Position numbers and translations under genes: made by a program. Under the pieces are notes generated by a model, which saw only the letters and a program-made list of their open reading frames with translations, was not told where the DNA came from and ran no database searches. Positions 1 through 11,216 of a stretch of DNA of 64,000 nucleotides are shown in pieces. The DNA comes from Methylococcales bacterium. Its GTDB lineage: Bacteria > Pseudomonadota > Gammaproteobacteria > Methylococcales > Methylomonadaceae. Position 1 is the first letter of the stretch; each line of letters starts with the position of its first letter. The DNA lies in NCBI GenBank assembly GCA_030949405.1, contig JAUZSN010000002.1, positions 1,426,001-1,490,000 on the forward strand, in the 5' to 3' direction.

Positions 1-1106
1 AAAATAGTTAGCGATAATTTACGACCAAACTTATCACTAATCCAACCCCCACCAGGTCGGGCGACTAAATTCATAAAGGCAAAACCTGCGGCTAATAATC
101 CTGCTTGCACCATGCTTACCCCTTGAGATTCATGAAAAGTTTCATAAAAAAACATCGGTAACATAGAGACCACCGCAAGCTCTGAACCAAAGGTAATTAA
201 ATAAGCTAAATCTAAAATGGCTACTTGTTTGAATTTGTATTTATGAATTTCATCAACAGGCTGCTGTAAATGCTCTTCATTAACATGAACAATTTTATAA
301 ACATTGTAGAAAAATAACACCCAGATACCGAGGTAAGCACAAAGAGCAGAACTACTCGAAAGCAAACTCACCCCTGCTGGCGATAATTTCCACGTTAATA
401 GCGTTAAAGTCGCATATAAAGGAATCGTCATTGTCACATAAAAGAATAAATCCCAAATGCTGGTTACTTCCATCGCCCCTGCTTTTTTCGGTTTGAAATA
501 AGTTGAGCCTTTAGGCGTATCCGTGACACTGAAAAAATAAATCACTGAATAAATTAAAGCAATCACACCTGTTGATGCAATCGCATAACGCCAGCCATTT
601 TCACCGCCATATATTAAAGCTAAGGTCGGTAACGTCATTGCCGCCGCTGCTGAACCAAAATTTCCCCAGCCACCATAAACTCCTTCAGCAACGCCCACTT
701 GTTTGGCTGGAAACCATTCGCCGACCATGCGAATGCCAATGACAAAACCCGCCCCGACAAAGCCCATTAAAAAACGTGCTAACGCCAGTTGTTCAAAACT
801 TTGAGCAAAAGCAAACATAAAACACGGTAGGCTGCCTAACGCCAGTAAAGTGGAAAAAGTGCGTTTAGGACCAAATTTATCGACTAAAATGCCAATCACA
901 ATACGAGCTGGAATGGTTAATGCCACGTTTAAGATTAAAACTGTTTTAATTTCGGCTTTAGTCATCCCAAGTGAATCAGCGATCACGAGCATTAATGGGG
1001 CGTGATTGAACCACACCACAAAGCTAATAAAAAAAGCAATCCACGTCGTGTGGAGAATTTTCATATTGCCTGAAAAAGACAGTAAATTAAATTTTTGCGT
1101 TGACAT
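1..1106 (-). CDS. nasA/narK: NarK/NasA-type nitrate/nitrite MFS transporter (partial, 3' end beyond window)
   Basis: The reverse strand reads without a stop from an ATG at 1106 to the window edge, about 368 codons. The product is a multi-spanning major facilitator protein. It carries the two family signatures: a Gly-rich GGWGNFGSA stretch in the N-terminal half and [17 protein letters not shown] in the C-terminal half, plus [19 protein letters not shown]. Members of this family import nitrate (or exchange it for nitrite) across the inner membrane. It is transcribed divergently from the kinase gene at 1277 and the nitrite/nitrate reductase genes, which supports a role in assimilation. A sigma-54-like promoter lies at 1180-1195. 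The final ~80-100 residues expected for the family are outside the window. Confidence 0.9.
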
Positions 1107-1179
1107 ATACACACCCCTATAAAGTTGGAAAATTTGTTTGTAACTATTTGAACGGTTTAATCCTATTAAGGGTTATATA

Positions 1180-3205: not shown

Positions 3206-5743
3206 ATGAGTAGGAAACAAACATTAGTGGTTATTGGAAATGGCATGGTCGGGCAAAACTTCCTGACTGGCTTAATGGCAAGCCCTCTCAAAGACAACTA
3301 TGAGGTGGTGACATTTTGCGAAGAATCGCTGGTCGCTTATGACCGAGTGCATTTAACCGACTATTTTTCAGGCAAGAGTGCAAACGATTTATCGTTAGTC
3401 GAAGATGGTTTTTTTGAAGATAACGGTATTACCATTCATATTGGCGATAAAGCCGTTGCGATTGATCGTGCGCGTAAATTAATCACGTCTGAAAAAGGGG
3501 TAAGTATCGCTTATGATAAAATCGTTTTAGCCACAGGTTCTTATCCGTTTGTTCCACCGATTCAAGGACATCAACGCGAACAATGTTTAGTTTATCGCAC
3601 GCTTGACGATGTAGAGGCGATTACAAAAATTGCAAAAAAATCTAAAGTAGGGGCGGTAGTCGGTGGAGGCTTATTAGGTTTGGAAGCGGCGAAAGCCTTA
3701 AAAGATTTAGGTTTAAAAACCCACGTTGTTCAGTTTGCACCCCGTTTAATGGCGGTACAGGTTGATGAAGGCGGCGGTGCAATGTTGGAGAAAAAAATTG
3801 AAGACTTAGGCATTAGTGTTCACACCAGTAAAAATACCACCAAAATTGCGGCAGGGAAATCGTGTTTTCATAAAATGAGTTTTGCGGATGGTGGTGAACT
3901 TGAAACTGATATTATTTTATTTTCCGCAGGGATTCGTCCGCGTGATGAGTTAGCCAGTTCAGCAGGATTAGCCTTGGGTGCACGTGGCGGCATTCAAATT
4001 GATAACCAATGTCGTACGTCTGATCCTGATATTTTTGCAATAGGCGAATGTGCGATTTGGAACGGTGAAATTTTTGGTTTAGTTGCACCAGGTTATGCCA
4101 TGGCACGAACCGTTTTGAATGTCCTTGAAGGCGGTGACGCTGAATTTACAGGGGCAGACATGAGTACCAAACTCAAATTAATGGGGGTAGATGTCGCGAG
4201 TATCGGTGATGCTCATGCGCGAACGCCTGGTGCTTTAGTTTATACTTATCAAAATGGGGCAGATGAAGTTTATAAACGTTTGGTTGTTAGCCAAGATAAA
4301 AAAATACTCTTAGGCGCGGTATTGGTCGGGGAAGCTTCGGGTTATGGAACGTTATTACAATACTGTTTAAATGGAATTGAATTACCTGAACATCCCGATT
4401 CATTAATTTTACCTTCACGTTCTGATGAGTCCGTTGGTTTAGGCGTGGATGCATTACCTGATTTGGCGCAAATTTGTTCCTGTCACGATGTGACTAAAGG
4501 ACAAATTTGTCGCGTTATTGAATCAGGCTGTATGACCCTAAATGGTTTAAAAGATGAGACTAAAGCCGCAACAGGCTGTGGAGGGTGTACGGCGTTATTA
4601 AAATCAGTTTTAGATTCTGAATTAGAAAAATCGGGTATTGAAGTCGATACTAGCCTTTGTGAACATTTCTCTCATACTCGCCAAGACCTTTATAATTTGG
4701 TCATGGTTGAGAAAATAAAAACCTTTGATGCGTTATTAGACAATCACGGACAAGGACGCGGTTGTGACGTTTGTCGTCAAGCAGTCGGTTCAATTCTAGC
4801 GTCTTATTGGAATGAATATGTTCTGGAAAAAAATCATTTAAGTCAGCAAGATACTAATGATACGTTTCTAGCGAATATGCAAAAAGACGGGACTTATTCC
4901 GTTGTTCCTAGAATGACAGGTGGCGAAGTTAGCCCTGATGGTTTGATTGCCATTGGACAAATTGCCAAAAAATATAATCTTTATACTAAGGTTACGGGCG
5001 GACAACGCGTTGATTTATTTGGCGCAAGAGTGGATCAATTGCCTCCGATCTGGAAAGAACTCATTGAGGCGGGTTTTGAATCAGGTCATGCTTATGGAAA
5101 ATCTTTAAGAACGGTTAAATCCTGTGTCGGTAGCACTTGGTGTCGTTTCGGAGTTGATGACAGTGTGGGTTTAGCGGTGGAATTAGAAAATCGCTACAAA
5201 GGGTTACGCGCACCGCATAAAATTAAATTTGCGGTTTCAGGTTGCACTCGTGAATGTGCCGAAGCGCAAGGTAAAGACATAGGAATCATTGCAACCGAAG
5301 GCGGCTGGAATTTATATGTCTGCGGCAACGGTGGAATGAAACCTCGTCACGCCGATTTATTCGCCACTAATTTAGACAAAGAAACGTTAATTAAATACAT
5401 TGATCGGGTCTTAATTTTCTACGTCCGAACGGCTGAACGTTTACAACGAACCTCAGTCTGGATGGAAAACATGGAGGGCGGGTTAGATTATTTAAAATCC
5501 GTGGTCATCGAAGACAAGCTTAATTTGAGTCAGTCCTTAGAATCACAAATGAAGCATGTTGTTGATACTTATCAATGTGAATGGAAAACCACCATTGAAA
5601 GTGAAGAAAAACTCAAACGTTTTCGTCATTTTATTAACAGTGATAAAACCGATGAAAATATTGTCTTTGTTGAAGAACGCGGACAAATTCGCCCGGCCGA
5701 TGAAGAAGAACGTCAACATTTTAAATTAGTGGAGGACGCGTAA
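3206..5743 (+). CDS. nirB: Assimilatory NAD(P)H nitrite reductase, large subunit
   Basis: 845 residues, the normal length for NirB. It reduces nitrite to ammonium in the cytoplasm with six electrons from NAD(P)H through FAD, Fe-S and siroheme. The N-terminal half is an FAD/NAD(P) oxidoreductase (VVIGNGMVG at residues 8-16, second nucleotide fold VVGGGLLGLEAA). A BFD-like [2Fe-2S] domain follows, with Cys 424, 426, 458 and 461, and then a second Cys pair (CDVC). The C-terminal half has the nitrite/sulfite reductase ferredoxin fold. Its siroheme/[4Fe-4S] cysteines are CVGSTWC (640, 646) and CTREC (680, 684). It abuts nirD with no gap. Confidence 0.97.
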   Translation: MSRKQTLVVIGNGMVGQNFLTGLMASPLKDNYEVVTFCEESLVAYDRVHLTDYFSGKSANDLSLVEDGFFEDNGITIHIGDKAVAIDRARKLITSEKGVSIAYDKIVLATGSYPFVPPIQGHQREQCLVYRTLDDVEAITKIAKKSKVGAVVGGGLLGLEAAKALKDLGLKTHVVQFAPRLMAVQVDEGGGAMLEKKIEDLGISVHTSKNTTKIAAGKSCFHKMSFADGGELETDIILFSAGIRPRDELASSAGLALGARGGIQIDNQCRTSDPDIFAIGECAIWNGEIFGLVAPGYAMARTVLNVLEGGDAEFTGADMSTKLKLMGVDVASIGDAHARTPGALVYTYQNGADEVYKRLVVSQDKKILLGAVLVGEASGYGTLLQYCLNGIELPEHPDSLILPSRSDESVGLGVDALPDLAQICSCHDVTKGQICRVIESGCMTLNGLKDETKAATGCGGCTALLKSVLDSELEKSGIEVDTSLCEHFSHTRQDLYNLVMVEKIKTFDALLDNHGQGRGCDVCRQAVGSILASYWNEYVLEKNHLSQQDTNDTFLANMQKDGTYSVVPRMTGGEVSPDGLIAIGQIAKKYNLYTKVTGGQRVDLFGARVDQLPPIWKELIEAGFESGHAYGKSLRTVKSCVGSTWCRFGVDDSVGLAVELENRYKGLRAPHKIKFAVSGCTRECAEAQGKDIGIIATEGGWNLYVCGNGGMKPRHADLFATNLDKETLIKYIDRVLIFYVRTAERLQRTSVWMENMEGGLDYLKSVVIEDKLNLSQSLESQMKHVVDTYQCEWKTTIESEEKLKRFRHFINSDKTDENIVFVEERGQIRPADEEERQHFKLVEDA

Positions 5744-6076
5744 ATGTCTCAATGGATAGATGTAGGCAGCGTGGATGATCTCCAAGCTGATTCTGGCGTG
5801 TGTGCGTTAGTGGAAAACACGCAAGTTGCGATTTTTTATATGCCGAAAGAAAATGGCCTCTATGCGATTAATAACTACGACCCTTTTAGTAAAATTCAGG
5901 TCTTATCACGGGGCTTAATCGGTGATATTAAAGGAATCCCGATGGTTTCCTCTCCAATTTATAAACAACATTTTAATCTTCAAACGGGACAGTGTTTTGA
6001 AGATAAAACTGTTTGTATTAATACTTATGCGGTAAGAAATAAAAATGGGCGTATTGAAGTGAGTCTTACGGAATAA
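5744..6076 (+). CDS. nirD: Nitrite reductase small subunit
   Basis: 110 residues with a Rieske-like fold (ALVENTQVAIFYMPKENGLYAINNYDPFSKIQVLSRGLIGDIKGIPMVSSPIYKQHF can be recognised in part). It lacks the Cys/His ligands of a true Rieske protein, as is normal for NirD. It partners NirB in the cytoplasmic NAD(P)H-nitrite reductase. The ATG follows the nirB stop immediately, so the two are translationally coupled. The PhzF-like gene starts directly after its stop. Confidence 0.93.
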   Translation: MSQWIDVGSVDDLQADSGVCALVENTQVAIFYMPKENGLYAINNYDPFSKIQVLSRGLIGDIKGIPMVSSPIYKQHFNLQTGQCFEDKTVCINTYAVRNKNGRIEVSLTE

Positions 6077-6991
6077 ATGATGAATTATAATTACTATATT
6101 GCTGATATTTTTACTAAAGAAGTTTTTGGTGGTGCACAAATTGCTGTTTTCCCTAATGCCGATGGCTTGACTGATGAAGCTATGCAGTTGATTGCCAAAG
6201 AATTTAATCTTTCGGAAACAGTGTTTGTCACTCACCCAGAAGCTGAAGGAAATACTCGCCGAATGCGTATTTTTTCGCCATTAGAAGAAAAAGACTTCGC
6301 GGGACACCCTATTATTGCTACGGCTTACGTTTTAGGCACTTGCGGTGATGTTAAATTAAAAGAAACCATTACGCCGATTTTATTTCAACAAAATCTAGGT
6401 GATATTGAAGCGAATGTCACCAGCGAATCGGGTAAACCTGTTTTTGTACAATTTAGTCGTCAAAGCAGTTCTATTATTGATCGTTTTACGCCTAATGATG
6501 ATGAGTTAGTCAGCTTTTTAGGTTTAGATCAATCGGAATTAGATCATAAAAAATACAGTCCGCGTTTAGTTTCTTGTGGGTTTCCGTATTTAATTGTGCC
6601 TGTATGGAATTATGACAGTGTACGCCATGCTAAATTTAGTTATAGCGCGTGGAGTCAATCTATAGCCCCCCAAACGGCGGCTTCTGAAATTTTATTATTT
6701 GCACCCAAATCACCGTTTAATGATGCCGATTTTAACGTGCGTTTATTAGGACCTAATATTGGCATTCATGATGATCCGCCTGTAGGAACGGCAATGCCAG
6801 CGTTTGCGGCGTATTTATGTTCATTTGATATTACTCAAAAAGGGACACATGTTTTTGCAGTAGATAGAGGTGATGAAGAAACGCGTCGTAGTGTGTTGAA
6901 TTTAGAAATGGATAATAAAGGAAAAGAGCTGTTGACGCTTAGGACTGGTGGCACGGCAGTTATGTTTGCGGAAGGTAAGATTATGGTTTAA
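6077..6991 (+). CDS. PhzF-family isomerase-like protein
   Basis: 304 residues, typical PhzF/YddE length. The N-terminus (YIADIFTKEVFGGAQIAVF) and the LSETVFV / FAGHPIIATAYVL segments are family hallmarks, and the second half repeats the diaminopimelate-epimerase-like fold (PPVGTAMPAFAAYLC). Known members include the PhzF isomerase of phenazine synthesis, but most have no assigned substrate, so no reaction is claimed here. The start (ATGATG) follows the nirD stop directly, making it the third gene of the nirBD transcript. A trans-acting role in nitrogen assimilation is possible but not shown. Confidence 0.88.
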   Translation: MMNYNYYIADIFTKEVFGGAQIAVFPNADGLTDEAMQLIAKEFNLSETVFVTHPEAEGNTRRMRIFSPLEEKDFAGHPIIATAYVLGTCGDVKLKETITPILFQQNLGDIEANVTSESGKPVFVQFSRQSSSIIDRFTPNDDELVSFLGLDQSELDHKKYSPRLVSCGFPYLIVPVWNYDSVRHAKFSYSAWSQSIAPQTAASEILLFAPKSPFNDADFNVRLLGPNIGIHDDPPVGTAMPAFAAYLCSFDITQKGTHVFAVDRGDEETRRSVLNLEMDNKGKELLTLRTGGTAVMFAEGKIMV

Positions 6992-7089: not shown

Positions 7090-9291
7090 ATGCTATTTGG
7101 TCGAAACAAAAAAAATCCCATTAAAATTACTGACAAAGGCATTGTCAAATGGTCGTATTCCACTTGTAATTATTGCTCGACAGGCTGTGCGATAGAAATT
7201 GGAATCAATAAAGAAGGCGACCCTGTCGGTGCGCGAGGCGTTGCGAGCGCGGATGTTAATCGCGGCAAACTCTGTACCAAAGGTATTTTTGAACATGAAA
7301 TTTTTAATTCCGCAGGCCGTGGAACAACGCCTTTAATTCGTGATCGTATTCATGATGATTATCAAGAAACCAGTTGGGATTCGGCACTCGGTAAAATGGC
7401 GGATGAAATCAAGCGTATCCAAGAAAAATACGGGCGTGATTCGTTTGCGATTGTTTCAACAGGACAAATTTTAACCGAAGGCTTTTATACGTTAGGGAAA
7501 TTAGCACGCGGCGTAATTGGCACAAATAATTATGATGGCAATACCACGCTGTGCATGGCCTCAGCAGTTTCAGGGTATAAACGCTCTTTTGGTTCCGATG
7601 GCCCACCAGGGTGTTATGAAGATTTTGAACATACGGATTGCTTATTAGCATGGGGCTCGAATTTACCTGAACAACATCCAATTATTTATTGGCGATTTAA
7701 AGAAGCCCAAGAAAAACGCGGTTTCCCATTAATTGTGATTGATCCTAGAGTCACCATGTTTGCCCAAGCAGCGGATATTCATTTACCAATCACATCAGGG
7801 ACGGATGTGGTATTAATGAATGCGTTAATGTATGTGATTTTAGATGAAGGCTTGGAGGATCAAGCTTACATTAAAGCCAATACCACTGGTTTTGATGAAC
7901 TCGCTGCCGAAGTACAAAATTATGACCCCGTGAGTGCGGCTAAAATTTGTGGGATTGATGAAGATACCATTCGCGTTGTGGCACGTCTCTATGCCAAAGC
8001 GGGGGCAGCGATGAATATCTGGTGCATGGGAATTAACCAAAGTACGCATGGTTCAGATGGGGTGGTGGGTTTAAATAATCTTAGTTTATTAACAGGAAAT
8101 ATTGGTAAAAAAGGCGGCACCAGTTTATCCATTACGGGACAGTGTAATGCGATGGGAACACGAGAATGGTCTTCATGTTCGGGATTACCTGGCTATCGGT
8201 TATTAGAAAATCCCGATGATCGCGAAGAAATAGGTAATTATTGGGGGGTTGATCCTGAATTTTTTCCTAAAAAACGCGGCATGACGCAGACCGATATTTT
8301 CCCTGCGATTGAAACAGGAAAAATTAAAGGCTTATGGTTAGTTGGAACTAACCCCATGACCTCAATGGCGAATACCGCTCGAATTCGTAAAACCTTAGAA
8401 AAACTTGAATGCTGTATTGTGCAAGATTCTTATTTGGATGTTGAAACCACAGAGTATGCACATATTTTTTTACCCGCGGCGATTTGGGCAGAAAAAGAAG
8501 GCGTGTTCACCAATACCGAACGACGGGTTAATATTATTCGTAAAATTAAAGAACCTTATGCGAATACTAAAACCGATTTACATATTTTCAACGCCTTAGC
8601 TCAACAGTTTGAACAAGGTCGAAAAATGACTTTTCCTGATAATTTCCATGAAGTATTTGCTGAAATGTGTGAATTATCCAAAGGGCGATTGGTTGATATT
8701 TCAGGGATGACGCATGATTTAATTGAGCAACATCAAGGGATTCAATGGCCGTATACCGAAGCTCAAGCGAAAAGAGGTGAAACTCCTGTTAAAGGTGGCT
8801 TACGATTATATACCGAGGATGCAACGTTTCGATTTGCGGAGGGTAAAGCTAAATTAATTCCATTACCCTTTATTGATAATAATGAAAAACCTGATGAACA
8901 ATTTCCTTTTTGGTTAAATTCTGGGCGATTAGTGGAGCATTTTCACTCTCGTACCCGTACTGGAAAAATTGCCAATAATAATAAATTTAGTCCTACCCCG
9001 TTTATGGAAATGAATCCTGATGCGGCGATAGAATTAGGGATTAAACATCAATCCTATGTTCGAGTGATTTCAAAACGAGGTGATGCCATTGTGATGGTGA
9101 TGCTAACCCAACGAATTGCCCGCAATATGGTTTTTATTCCGTTTCACTTTTTTAATTGTGTTAATCGTTTAACCCTCGGATTATTAGACCCACATTCACG
9201 TCAACCTGCCTTTAAACAATCCGCAGTTAACATCGAACTCATAGACCAAAAACAAGCGGCGATTCTGAATAAAGAAGCACGTACCTATTAA
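7090..9291 (+). CDS. nasA: NasA-type nitrate reductase, molybdopterin catalytic subunit
   Basis: 733 residues of the NasA/NapA/DMSO-reductase molybdoenzyme family. The N-terminal [4Fe-4S] ligands are C26-x2-C29-x3-C33-x28-C62. The likely Mo-coordinating Cys155 lies in TLCMASAVSGYKRSFG, as in NasA/NapA. The MGD-binding domains continue to the usual C-terminal beta-barrel (HFHSRTRTGKI, FHFFNCVNRLTLGLLDPHSRQP). There is no Tat signal, so the enzyme is cytoplasmic. It also lacks the C-terminal BFD [2Fe-2S] domain of many NasA proteins (~850-900 residues). The next gene supplies Fe-S clusters and a membrane anchor, suggesting electron supply from quinol. The nitrate substrate is assigned from family plus neighbours. 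Confidence 0.85.
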   Translation: MLFGRNKKNPIKITDKGIVKWSYSTCNYCSTGCAIEIGINKEGDPVGARGVASADVNRGKLCTKGIFEHEIFNSAGRGTTPLIRDRIHDDYQETSWDSALGKMADEIKRIQEKYGRDSFAIVSTGQILTEGFYTLGKLARGVIGTNNYDGNTTLCMASAVSGYKRSFGSDGPPGCYEDFEHTDCLLAWGSNLPEQHPIIYWRFKEAQEKRGFPLIVIDPRVTMFAQAADIHLPITSGTDVVLMNALMYVILDEGLEDQAYIKANTTGFDELAAEVQNYDPVSAAKICGIDEDTIRVVARLYAKAGAAMNIWCMGINQSTHGSDGVVGLNNLSLLTGNIGKKGGTSLSITGQCNAMGTREWSSCSGLPGYRLLENPDDREEIGNYWGVDPEFFPKKRGMTQTDIFPAIETGKIKGLWLVGTNPMTSMANTARIRKTLEKLECCIVQDSYLDVETTEYAHIFLPAAIWAEKEGVFTNTERRVNIIRKIKEPYANTKTDLHIFNALAQQFEQGRKMTFPDNFHEVFAEMCELSKGRLVDISGMTHDLIEQHQGIQWPYTEAQAKRGETPVKGGLRLYTEDATFRFAEGKAKLIPLPFIDNNEKPDEQFPFWLNSGRLVEHFHSRTRTGKIANNNKFSPTPFMEMNPDAAIELGIKHQSYVRVISKRGDAIVMVMLTQRIARNMVFIPFHFFNCVNRLTLGLLDPHSRQPAFKQSAVNIELIDQKQAAILNKEARTY

Positions 9292-9308
9292 GGAATTAAG
9301 AAAATATT

Positions 9309-11216
9309 ATGTTTGAAGTCCGTCCCGATGAACCCAAATACGCTTTTTTAGAAAAATTGGAGAGCCAAACTAAAAACCATTACGGTAAAAATATAGAATT
9401 AACCTCAGATGTTAGTGAATTACGCAATGAAAGTTTATTAATTAATGGGGATGAGGCTATTGGTGATAATCCTAATCGTTATAAGCAACATGGTTTCTAT
9501 TTAAATGTCGATAATTGTATTGGTTGTCATGCTTGTGAATCGGCTTGCAGTGAAAAAAATGATGTTCCCGCGCATTTAGCTTTTCGGTCGGTCGGTTTTA
9601 TTGAAGGCGGAAGTTTCCCGAATTATCAACGAATTAATCTTTCGATGGCCTGTAATCATTGTGATGATCCCGTGTGTTTAACAGGCTGTCCCACTCGTGC
9701 TTATACTAAATTTGCCGAATATGGGGCAGTGTTACAAGATCCTGATATTTGTTTTGGCTGTGGTTATTGTACATGGGTTTGTCCTTATAATGCGCCGCAA
9801 CTTGATCCCGTAAAAGGTGAAGTCAGCAAATGTAATATGTGTGTGGATCGTTTGGAAGTGGGCTTAAAACCCGCCTGTGTTGCGGCTTGTTTAGGTAACG
9901 CGCTGGATTTTGGGGTTGTTGAAGATATTCCTGAAAATCGTGAACAAGCAAAAGCGGCCATTCCAGGTTTTCCAACCCCTGAAATTACCCATCCTAATAT
10001 TCGCTTTCAACAAACAAAAGCCACGCAACAGGAAATGACGCGTACCGATTCGATGCCGATTAAATATCATAAAGATAGTCCGCAAAGTGAATTTAAAGCG
10101 GTTGTCGATGAAAAGCAAGGGCATGAAAAATTTTGGAATTTTAAAACATTATTAACCAGTCATGAGTCCGCACATGTAATTTTCACCTTGTGTATCCAAG
10201 CGACTATTGGGGTATTATTGATGTTGATTTTAGGCGATATTTTTGCGATTGAAGCCTTAAGTTTATTAACTGAAAAAGCTTTATTATTGCCCGTGTTGTG
10301 GGTAACAATTGTGATTTCTACAATAGGTTTATATAAACTCAATATGCACTTAGGTAAACCGCATCGGTTTTATCGCGGCTTTAATAATTTACGTTTATCA
10401 CCTGTGAGTCGGGAAATTGCAGGGGTATCGATGTTTTATACTGGCTTACTAGGTTATGGATTGTTTGCATTATTTGATAATGCCTTTATGGGTTTTATTG
10501 CCACGAGTTTTGCTTTATTAGGGGGGTTAAGTGGCCTCATTGGTTTATTTTACATGTATAAACTGTATCGAATTCCTGCGCGTCCTTTTTGGGATCATTA
10601 TCAAACGGCGACGGCATTTGTGGGTTCAATGCTTAGTTTTGGCGCGTTAATTATTGCGGTGGTGACTACCATTGTCCTACCCTTGAGAGTTGATGCTATT
10701 CTGTTATTACAATCCTTAGCGACTATCATGGCAATCGGTTTAAGTTTAGAGGGCATTGGGCATATTTTTCATGCTCGTGATATGAAAACGAGAAACAATG
10801 AAGGTGCGGCCTCCTATTATCGTCAAGTCACCCAATATGGAAAATCATATTTATTACGAAATGGTTTATTAGGGATTAATTTATTAGCGTCTATCTTGAT
10901 GATCTATGTGGAATCTGCGCTGGCATTTATTATCCTTGGTGGATTATTAACGGTCTCCATGTTAGTCATGGGTGCATTTGGGCGTTCATTATTTTTTGTA
11001 TTGGTCATTCCAACCACCATGCCAGGTGCCTTTTTCTGGAAAAATGATGGCTTTGTCGATCATGCTAGAGAAACGGGATTAGCCGATATGCCACAAACAG
11101 GCGTTGTTTATGAAAGACATCATGCGTTTAAGGTTGATGAGTTTATTCAAACCTTAAAAGGAAATTCCTTTAAAGATATGCTTGAACATGTAAAGTGGAT
11201 TTTTGGTCGTCAATAA
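9309..11216 (+). CDS. Fused DmsB-like ferredoxin / DmsC-like membrane anchor subunit
   Basis: 635 residues combining two subunits that are usually separate. Residues ~60-205 carry four ferredoxin clusters: CIGCHACESAC, CNHCDDPVCLTGC, CFGCGYCTWVC and CNMC-x11-CVAAC, each able to bind [4Fe-4S]. After a ~90-residue linker comes a DmsC/YnfH-type membrane domain with about eight hydrophobic spans (from HESAHVIFTLCIQATIG to ALAFIILGGLLTVSMLVM). In known DmsABC enzymes DmsC oxidises menaquinol and DmsB passes electrons to the molybdenum subunit. The gene lies 17 bp after the nitrate reductase gene. No Tat signal is visible, so the clusters should face the cytoplasm. Confidence 0.87.
   Translation: MFEVRPDEPKYAFLEKLESQTKNHYGKNIELTSDVSELRNESLLINGDEAIGDNPNRYKQHGFYLNVDNCIGCHACESACSEKNDVPAHLAFRSVGFIEGGSFPNYQRINLSMACNHCDDPVCLTGCPTRAYTKFAEYGAVLQDPDICFGCGYCTWVCPYNAPQLDPVKGEVSKCNMCVDRLEVGLKPACVAACLGNALDFGVVEDIPENREQAKAAIPGFPTPEITHPNIRFQQTKATQQEMTRTDSMPIKYHKDSPQSEFKAVVDEKQGHEKFWNFKTLLTSHESAHVIFTLCIQATIGVLLMLILGDIFAIEALSLLTEKALLLPVLWVTIVISTIGLYKLNMHLGKPHRFYRGFNNLRLSPVSREIAGVSMFYTGLLGYGLFALFDNAFMGFIATSFALLGGLSGLIGLFYMYKLYRIPARPFWDHYQTATAFVGSMLSFGALIIAVVTTIVLPLRVDAILLLQSLATIMAIGLSLEGIGHIFHARDMKTRNNEGAASYYRQVTQYGKSYLLRNGLLGINLLASILMIYVESALAFIILGGLLTVSMLVMGAFGRSLFFVLVIPTTMPGAFFWKNDGFVDHARETGLADMPQTGVVYERHHAFKVDEFIQTLKGNSFKDMLEHVKWIFGRQ

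Follow-up and report, generated by a model that had tools for sequence, protein, structure and literature searches.

The DNA analysed here is a 64 kb window, a term used for the whole stretch, of the 2.98 Mb genome of a methane-oxidising gammaproteobacterium of the order Methylococcales. It contains a nas locus with the gene order narK-type (divergent), PP2C/Ser-Thr kinase, nirB, nirD, phzF, nasA and fusion, the last two of which are the subject of this study. They encode a NasA-like molybdoenzyme and a protein that combines a DmsB-like iron-sulfur domain with a DmsC-like membrane domain. Both reading frames are open, lie on the same strand and are spaced by 17 bp, and their products together provide a molybdenum subunit, a subunit with four [4Fe-4S] clusters and an anchor of the quinone-linked type, which is the composition of a complex iron-sulfur molybdoenzyme. 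A preliminary description of the locus had proposed a nitrate reductase that is located in the cytoplasm and fed by quinol. At the level of sequence, this model is supported by the gene pair itself, the absent signals for export by the twin-arginine translocation (Tat) system, the iron-sulfur clusters, the residues of the quinol site, the orientation of the membrane domain, the active site and the lack of a NasB. The features of the two genes, with position, strand and basis, are as follows:

7090..9291, +, nasA-like molybdenum nitrate reductase, 733 aa, without Tat signal and without BFD domain
7165..7275, +, N-terminal [4Fe-4S] site of NasA with C26, C29, C33 and C62 (conserved Cys)
7552..7554, +, Cys155, the Mo ligand, in the motif LCMASAV (motif conservation)
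9309..11216, +, DmsB-DmsC fusion protein, 635 aa, without Tat signal
9483..10016, +, DmsB-like four-[4Fe-4S] domain with 16 invariant Cys (39% identical to E. coli DmsB)
10161..11021, +, DmsC-like eight-helix membrane domain (PF04976, predicted fold)
10347..10349, +, His347, equivalent of E. coli DmsC His65, quinol site, invariant (alignment)
10413..10415, +, Glu369, equivalent of E. coli DmsC Glu87 (menaquinol binding), invariant (alignment)

The NasA-like reductase and the DmsB-DmsC fusion protein

The properties of the reductase set it apart from the classical enzymes of nitrate assimilation. Its sequence matches the Pfam families Molybdop_Fe4S4, Molybdopterin and Molydop_binding and not Fer2_BFD, in line with the earlier claim that it is devoid of a C-terminal [2Fe-2S] domain. 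With an identity of about 35–39% to classical NasA, it does not reach the cut-off of the NasA/NasC equivalog NF047855 (484.1 compared to 1100 bits) and also stays under the curated cut-offs for haloarchaeal NasA and formate dehydrogenase. The top curated model is Fdh-alpha with 569.9 bits, again under its cut-off, the NarG model TIGR01580 yields 40.9 of 1084 bits, and models of the DmsA type score far below those of NasA and formate dehydrogenases. No NCBIfam equivalog model of the release used reaches its cut-off for either the reductase or the fusion protein, and annotation thus probably hides the system under the names of formate dehydrogenase or dimethyl sulfoxide (DMSO) reductase. The active site, with the motif LCMASAV and residues C155-M156, D170 and R358, is as in NasA and NapA, unlike in FdhF and the FdsA of the same genome, which differ at positions 156, 170 and 358. 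All four cysteines of the N-terminal cluster are present in 81 of 82 fusion-linked rows of the alignment, with a gap in the remaining one.

The relationship to other molybdoenzymes is illustrated in a tree that took in BFD-bearing NasA, the fusion types of actinobacteria and Burkholderiales, NapA and formate dehydrogenases, and that left out cyanobacterial NarB and Bacillus NasC. In this tree, all 36 fusion-linked reductases are contained in one clade (SH-aLRT 100, stem 1.68), which groups with nitrate reductases and whose examined members are all without a BFD domain. The reductase thus belongs to a separate deep clade and did not itself lose a BFD domain, contrary to what had initially been implied. 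By the same placement, a truncated classical NasA was rejected as an explanation. Ahead of the first cluster cysteine, 71 of the 82 members carry a highly conserved extension of 25 residues, compared to 4–14 residues in most BFD-type NasA sampled; this extension may act as a docking element. The AlphaFold model of the reductase is of moderate confidence only. A Tat motif is absent in all 82 NasA and all 93 fusion proteins checked, and with nirB, nirD and narK as its neighbours the reductase has the features of a cytoplasmic enzyme in a nas/nir locus.

In the fusion protein, matches to Fer4_11 and to DmsC (PF04976, 60.4 bits at a gathering cut-off of 22.3), together with 16 cluster cysteines that show no variation among 93 homologues, support the predicted linkage of four [4Fe-4S] clusters to a DmsC-type membrane part. 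The N-terminal domain shares 39% identity with E. coli DmsB in an alignment of 176 columns and does not reach the cut-off of the DmsB equivalog TIGR02951 (162 compared to 214.1 bits). The membrane domain aligns to E. coli DmsC along its whole length (hhalign, 98%), which places His65, Gly67, Arg71 and Glu87 of the E. coli protein at H347, G349, R353 and E369, conserved to 100, 100, 94 and 100%. Of these, His65 is a residue of the quinol site, and Glu87 was reportedly found by Geijer and Weiner in 2004 to be important for menaquinol binding (a title cited in PMC6303296). Their conservation suggests that the fusion protein would exchange electrons with quinone. AlphaFold predicts the eight long helices of the domain with confidence, and the resulting fold matches the menaquinone-bound PsrC of polysulfide reductase (2vpw_C, Z 16.8, root-mean-square deviation 4.2, 245 residues) and chain C of alternative complex III (Z 22). 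Since cytochrome bd also matches with Z 18–20, the fold by itself is not enough to assign the membrane domain to a family.

A pronounced feature of this domain concerns its orientation. The loops on the side of the cluster domain contain on average 18.3 Lys and Arg per protein in 118 residues, compared to 0.67 in the 40 residues on the opposite side, and the direction of this bias is identical in 93 of 93 fusion proteins. The corresponding counts for E. coli DmsC, 3 and 7, run in the reverse direction, which is what a protein with periplasmic partners should show. As judged from this opposite distribution of charge, the DmsC fold appears upside down with respect to its E. coli counterpart, which would locate the clusters and the quinol site towards the cytoplasm and thus offers a case of a DmsC-type domain that is apparently flipped in the membrane. 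Positions with a conservation of at least 90% are found at 31 of 110 sites in the cytoplasmic halves of the helices and at 5 of 109 in the outer halves, with nine and zero of them, respectively, being polar. No polar route to the outer face is conserved, which speaks for an electroneutral enzyme, and the quinol:nitrate step would probably proceed without net charge transfer.

Distribution of the pair and its genomic context

The same two-gene unit was sought in other genomes, as the preliminary description had suggested, and it was found to be common to hundreds of bacterial species. A scan of GTDB r220 genomes identified 445 stretches with relatives of the fusion, of which the best 80 were kept. 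These 80 span Methylococcales, Thiotrichaceae, Cycloclasticus, Thioglobus and the symbionts of Bathymodiolus, Solemya and Lamellibrachia, with the nearest named kin of the fusion gene among them in Methylococcaceae, Methylobacter and Methyloglobulus. Upstream DNA is available for 75 loci, and in 73 of them nasA directly precedes the fusion, mostly at a distance of at most 100 bp; the two exceptions are L037, with just 190 bp of upstream sequence, and L042, with a transposase upstream. Wide gaps between the two genes in L024, L047 and L092 are filled by toxin-antitoxin-like or transposase genes. The pair was also kept in 19 of 20 genomes picked for their divergence, and with these numbers a chance adjacency was rejected.

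The fusion is carried by 60 of 369 gammaproteobacterial genomes drawn evenly over the class and by 6 of 398 genomes of a draw over the phylum, two of these six being outside Gammaproteobacteria. The putatively quinol-fed enzyme, initially characterized as unusual, is thus common among Gammaproteobacteria and not the rarity of one genome. On plasmids, no copies of the fusion were detected at E 1e-60.

Certain loci provide individual observations. In the twentieth divergent genome (L171, 5993-8721), a fusion without nasA nearby adjoins a MobB-like gene of molybdenum cofactor biosynthesis, as read by eye. In L108 (6148-8916; G020:C3:426000-440000), a transposase gene splits the fusion between cluster and membrane domains and leaves nasA intact, which constitutes a natural disruption; an extra domain in the fusion of G020 was rejected, the insertion being this transposase gene. 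L109 holds at ~5826-6140 (G000:C2:2090825-2091139) a decayed nasA fragment with several stops, about 59% identical to the nasA of the window; it is flanked by pnp and the gene of a TonB-dependent receptor and represents what is left of a second copy.

In the whole genome no NasB was found, as had been stated for the locus: genuine NasB finds its top match in the N-terminal half of NirB, followed by generic flavoproteins, on which basis a hidden NasB was rejected. A second nitrate reductase was equally rejected, the only other full-length homologue being FdsA. Among 61 relatives in the order of the window, 17 carry the fusion, 34 a BFD-type NasA and 2 both, where about 9.5 would be expected (Fisher p 2e-5, in a test that ignores relatedness among genomes). 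This near-exclusivity is the pattern expected if the fusion pair and classical NasA do the same job, and within this order the pair mostly replaces the classical enzyme. A classical BFD-type NasA is found beside the pair in L022 (9924-13899), L028, L048, L170, L175 and L076, in some cases with NasB, and such genomes with both reductases side by side are natural strains for a comparison of the two enzymes.

Proposed mechanism and alternative explanations

On the basis of the directly observed gene pair, its domains, invariant residues, charge-based orientation and distribution, we consider it likely that the pair constitutes a membrane-tethered, cytoplasm-facing quinol:nitrate oxidoreductase for nitrate assimilation. 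In the complex that the two proteins would form, quinol as the putative donor would be oxidised near His347 and Glu369, at the cytoplasmic end of the inverted DmsC-like domain, and two electrons would travel along the DmsB-like domain with its four [4Fe-4S] clusters and arrive at the NasA-like subunit, first at its [4Fe-4S] cluster and then at its molybdenum-bis(pyranopterin guanine dinucleotide) (Mo-bisPGD) cofactor. Here, nitrate would be reduced to nitrite in the cytoplasm, followed by the NADH-dependent conversion of nitrite to ammonium by NirBD. With protons freed and used on the same side, the quinol-dependent step would be electroneutral. A reduction of nitrate driven by quinol is thermodynamically allowed, as the established potential of the nitrate/nitrite couple lies far above that of quinone/quinol. 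Physiologically, one NADH would be spared per nitrate, which would matter where NADH requires reverse electron transport. The distribution of RuBisCO (PF00016) suggests such an NADH-sparing role in autotrophs, as it is encoded by 53 of 60 carriers of the fusion compared to 122 of 309 non-carriers, and by 34 of 41 genomes with only the fusion compared to 58 of 98 with only the classical enzyme (p 0.01).

Several observations weigh against the proposed assimilatory role or the model of the complex. The association with RuBisCO ignores phylogeny, and a match to PF00016 is absent from the genome of the window itself. Exclusivity with classical NasA was tested class-wide and not found: 19 genomes contain both types of reductase where about 19 are expected, and with this independence the exclusivity holds only in the order of the window. 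The iron-sulfur part of the fusion is predicted by AlphaFold with low confidence. Finally, there was no sign of nitrogen control: matches to NtrC/sigma-54-like sites in the window are below chance, with none in the intergenic region 1112-1277, and a search for a known RNA leader found none.

This lack of a nitrogen-control element would be compatible with the same enzyme serving in redox balance or respiration, where electrons from quinol are dumped on nitrate and NirBD detoxifies the nitrite, the more so as quinol-coupled reductases generally serve respiration and dissimilatory NirBD systems exist as well. Nevertheless, the gene context with nirBD, narK and the PP2C-kinase and the fact that the pair takes the place of the assimilatory BFD-containing NasA in the order speak for assimilation, and a quinol site on the cytoplasmic side would save no energy. 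We consider a role in redox balance or respiration improbable. Less probable still, and in our view quite unlikely, is that NasA obtains its electrons from a soluble ferredoxin or a flavodoxin, like the NarB of cyanobacteria, with the fusion acting mainly as an anchor or for another redox partner. Enzymes of the NarB type, which are without a BFD domain, do use ferredoxin; however, a mere anchor would need neither the 16 invariant cysteines of a four-cluster wire nor the invariant residues of a quinol site, the fusion gene is almost strictly linked to this NasA clade, and the clade is apart from the classical enzymes sampled, with cyanobacterial NarB not in the tree. That the protein would be a different molybdoenzyme, such as a formate dehydrogenase that feeds the quinone pool, is highly improbable, since the Fdh-alpha model, although scoring best, does not reach its cut-off, whereas residues 156, 170 and 358, the nas operon setting and the branching of the clade all point to a nitrate reductase.

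The proposed quinol:nitrate oxidoreductase combines features of several known systems. With NasA, NasC and NarB it would share the cytoplasmic location, Mo-bisPGD with a Cys ligand, one N-terminal [4Fe-4S] cluster and the adjacent nirBD and narK. In contrast to these BFD-bearing enzymes that are fed by NasB or ferredoxin, it is part of a separate clade without BFD domain and NasB, and it has the conserved 25-residue N-terminal extension and an obligate-looking iron-sulfur and membrane partner. E. coli DmsABC shares the four-cluster B domain, the DmsC membrane domain and the same quinol-site residues, yet in the pair described here B and C are fused, Tat export is absent, the membrane domain is apparently inverted according to the positive-inside rule and the catalytic subunit is NasA-like rather than DmsA-like. 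PsrABC and alternative complex III resemble it in the fold of the membrane domain and contain different catalytic subunits; both have a periplasmic orientation.

Two other systems offer functional analogies. In Mycobacterium tuberculosis, NarGHJI is said to act with NirBD in nitrate assimilation (a title cited in PMC11636981), likewise as a quinol-fed cytoplasmic nitrate reductase ahead of NirBD, but NarGHI contains the dihaem cytochrome b NarI besides NarGH and the catalytic subunit studied here is not NarG. SoeABC, a cytoplasmic sulfite dehydrogenase with an NrfD-like anchor, is likewise a cytoplasm-facing molybdoenzyme with an iron-sulfur subunit and an anchor of the NrfD/DmsC type that exchanges electrons with quinone (PMC6335251); it is set apart by its description, not by sequence, as a system of separate subunits that oxidises sulfite with opposite electron flow. 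By analogy, the pair would work like SoeABC and assimilatory NarGHI and be a member of neither. Wells et al. 2020 described the clade of NasA, NapA, AioA and formate dehydrogenases as having no member with the canonical four-cluster and anchor subunits (PMC7331816), a statement to which the nasA-fusion pair is an exception.

The known donors of assimilatory nitrate reduction are NADH, by way of flavoproteins, and ferredoxin-type proteins (PMC4724949), which is also the textbook view of these enzymes. If the present model is correct, quinol serves for nitrate assimilation in about a sixth of the gammaproteobacterial genomes sampled, and what the use of nitrate costs methanotrophs, sulfur oxidisers and vent symbionts in energy needs recalculation. 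We did not find a description of the two-gene unit in the open-licence literature, with most subscription journals outside the search and an earlier description thus possible. On balance, we slightly favour the view that it defines an undescribed, widespread assimilatory class, a cytoplasm-facing quinol:nitrate oxidoreductase with inverted DmsC-type anchor that would spare NADH and be favoured in autotrophs and in oxidisers of methane and sulfur.

Neighbouring genes

The remaining genes of the nas locus precede the pair:

3..1112, -, NarK-type nitrate/nitrite transporter (major facilitator superfamily), divergent; cut by the start of the window, with a full length of 494 aa in the genome
1277..3025, +, PP2C phosphatase and Ser/Thr kinase fusion (Pfam domains)
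3206..5743, +, nirB, NADH-dependent nitrite reductase large subunit (TIGR02374, 1077.5 bits), with its own Fer2_BFD
5744..6076, +, nirD, nitrite reductase small subunit, 110 aa (TIGR02378, above cut-off)
6077..6991, +, phzF-family gene, inside the operon (domain match)

Among these, nirD had been omitted from the gene list of the preliminary description. The gene for the PP2C-Ser/Thr kinase fusion is a member of the nas locus here and likewise in several related loci. The phzF-family gene is found between nirBD and nasA in nearly all loci of Methylococcales and Cycloclasticus with enough upstream sequence, and not at that position in those of Thiotrichaceae. Among symbionts, the Lamellibrachia endosymbiont (L092) carries both genes of the pair, separated by a transposase gene, and a paper on the Riftia symbiont attributes assimilatory nitrate reduction to NarGHI (PMC11636981). 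Beyond the start of the window, a few kb ahead of the nas locus, a gene cluster similar to a group-4 [NiFe] hydrogenase or complex I was read from the sequences (L111, 247-4480).

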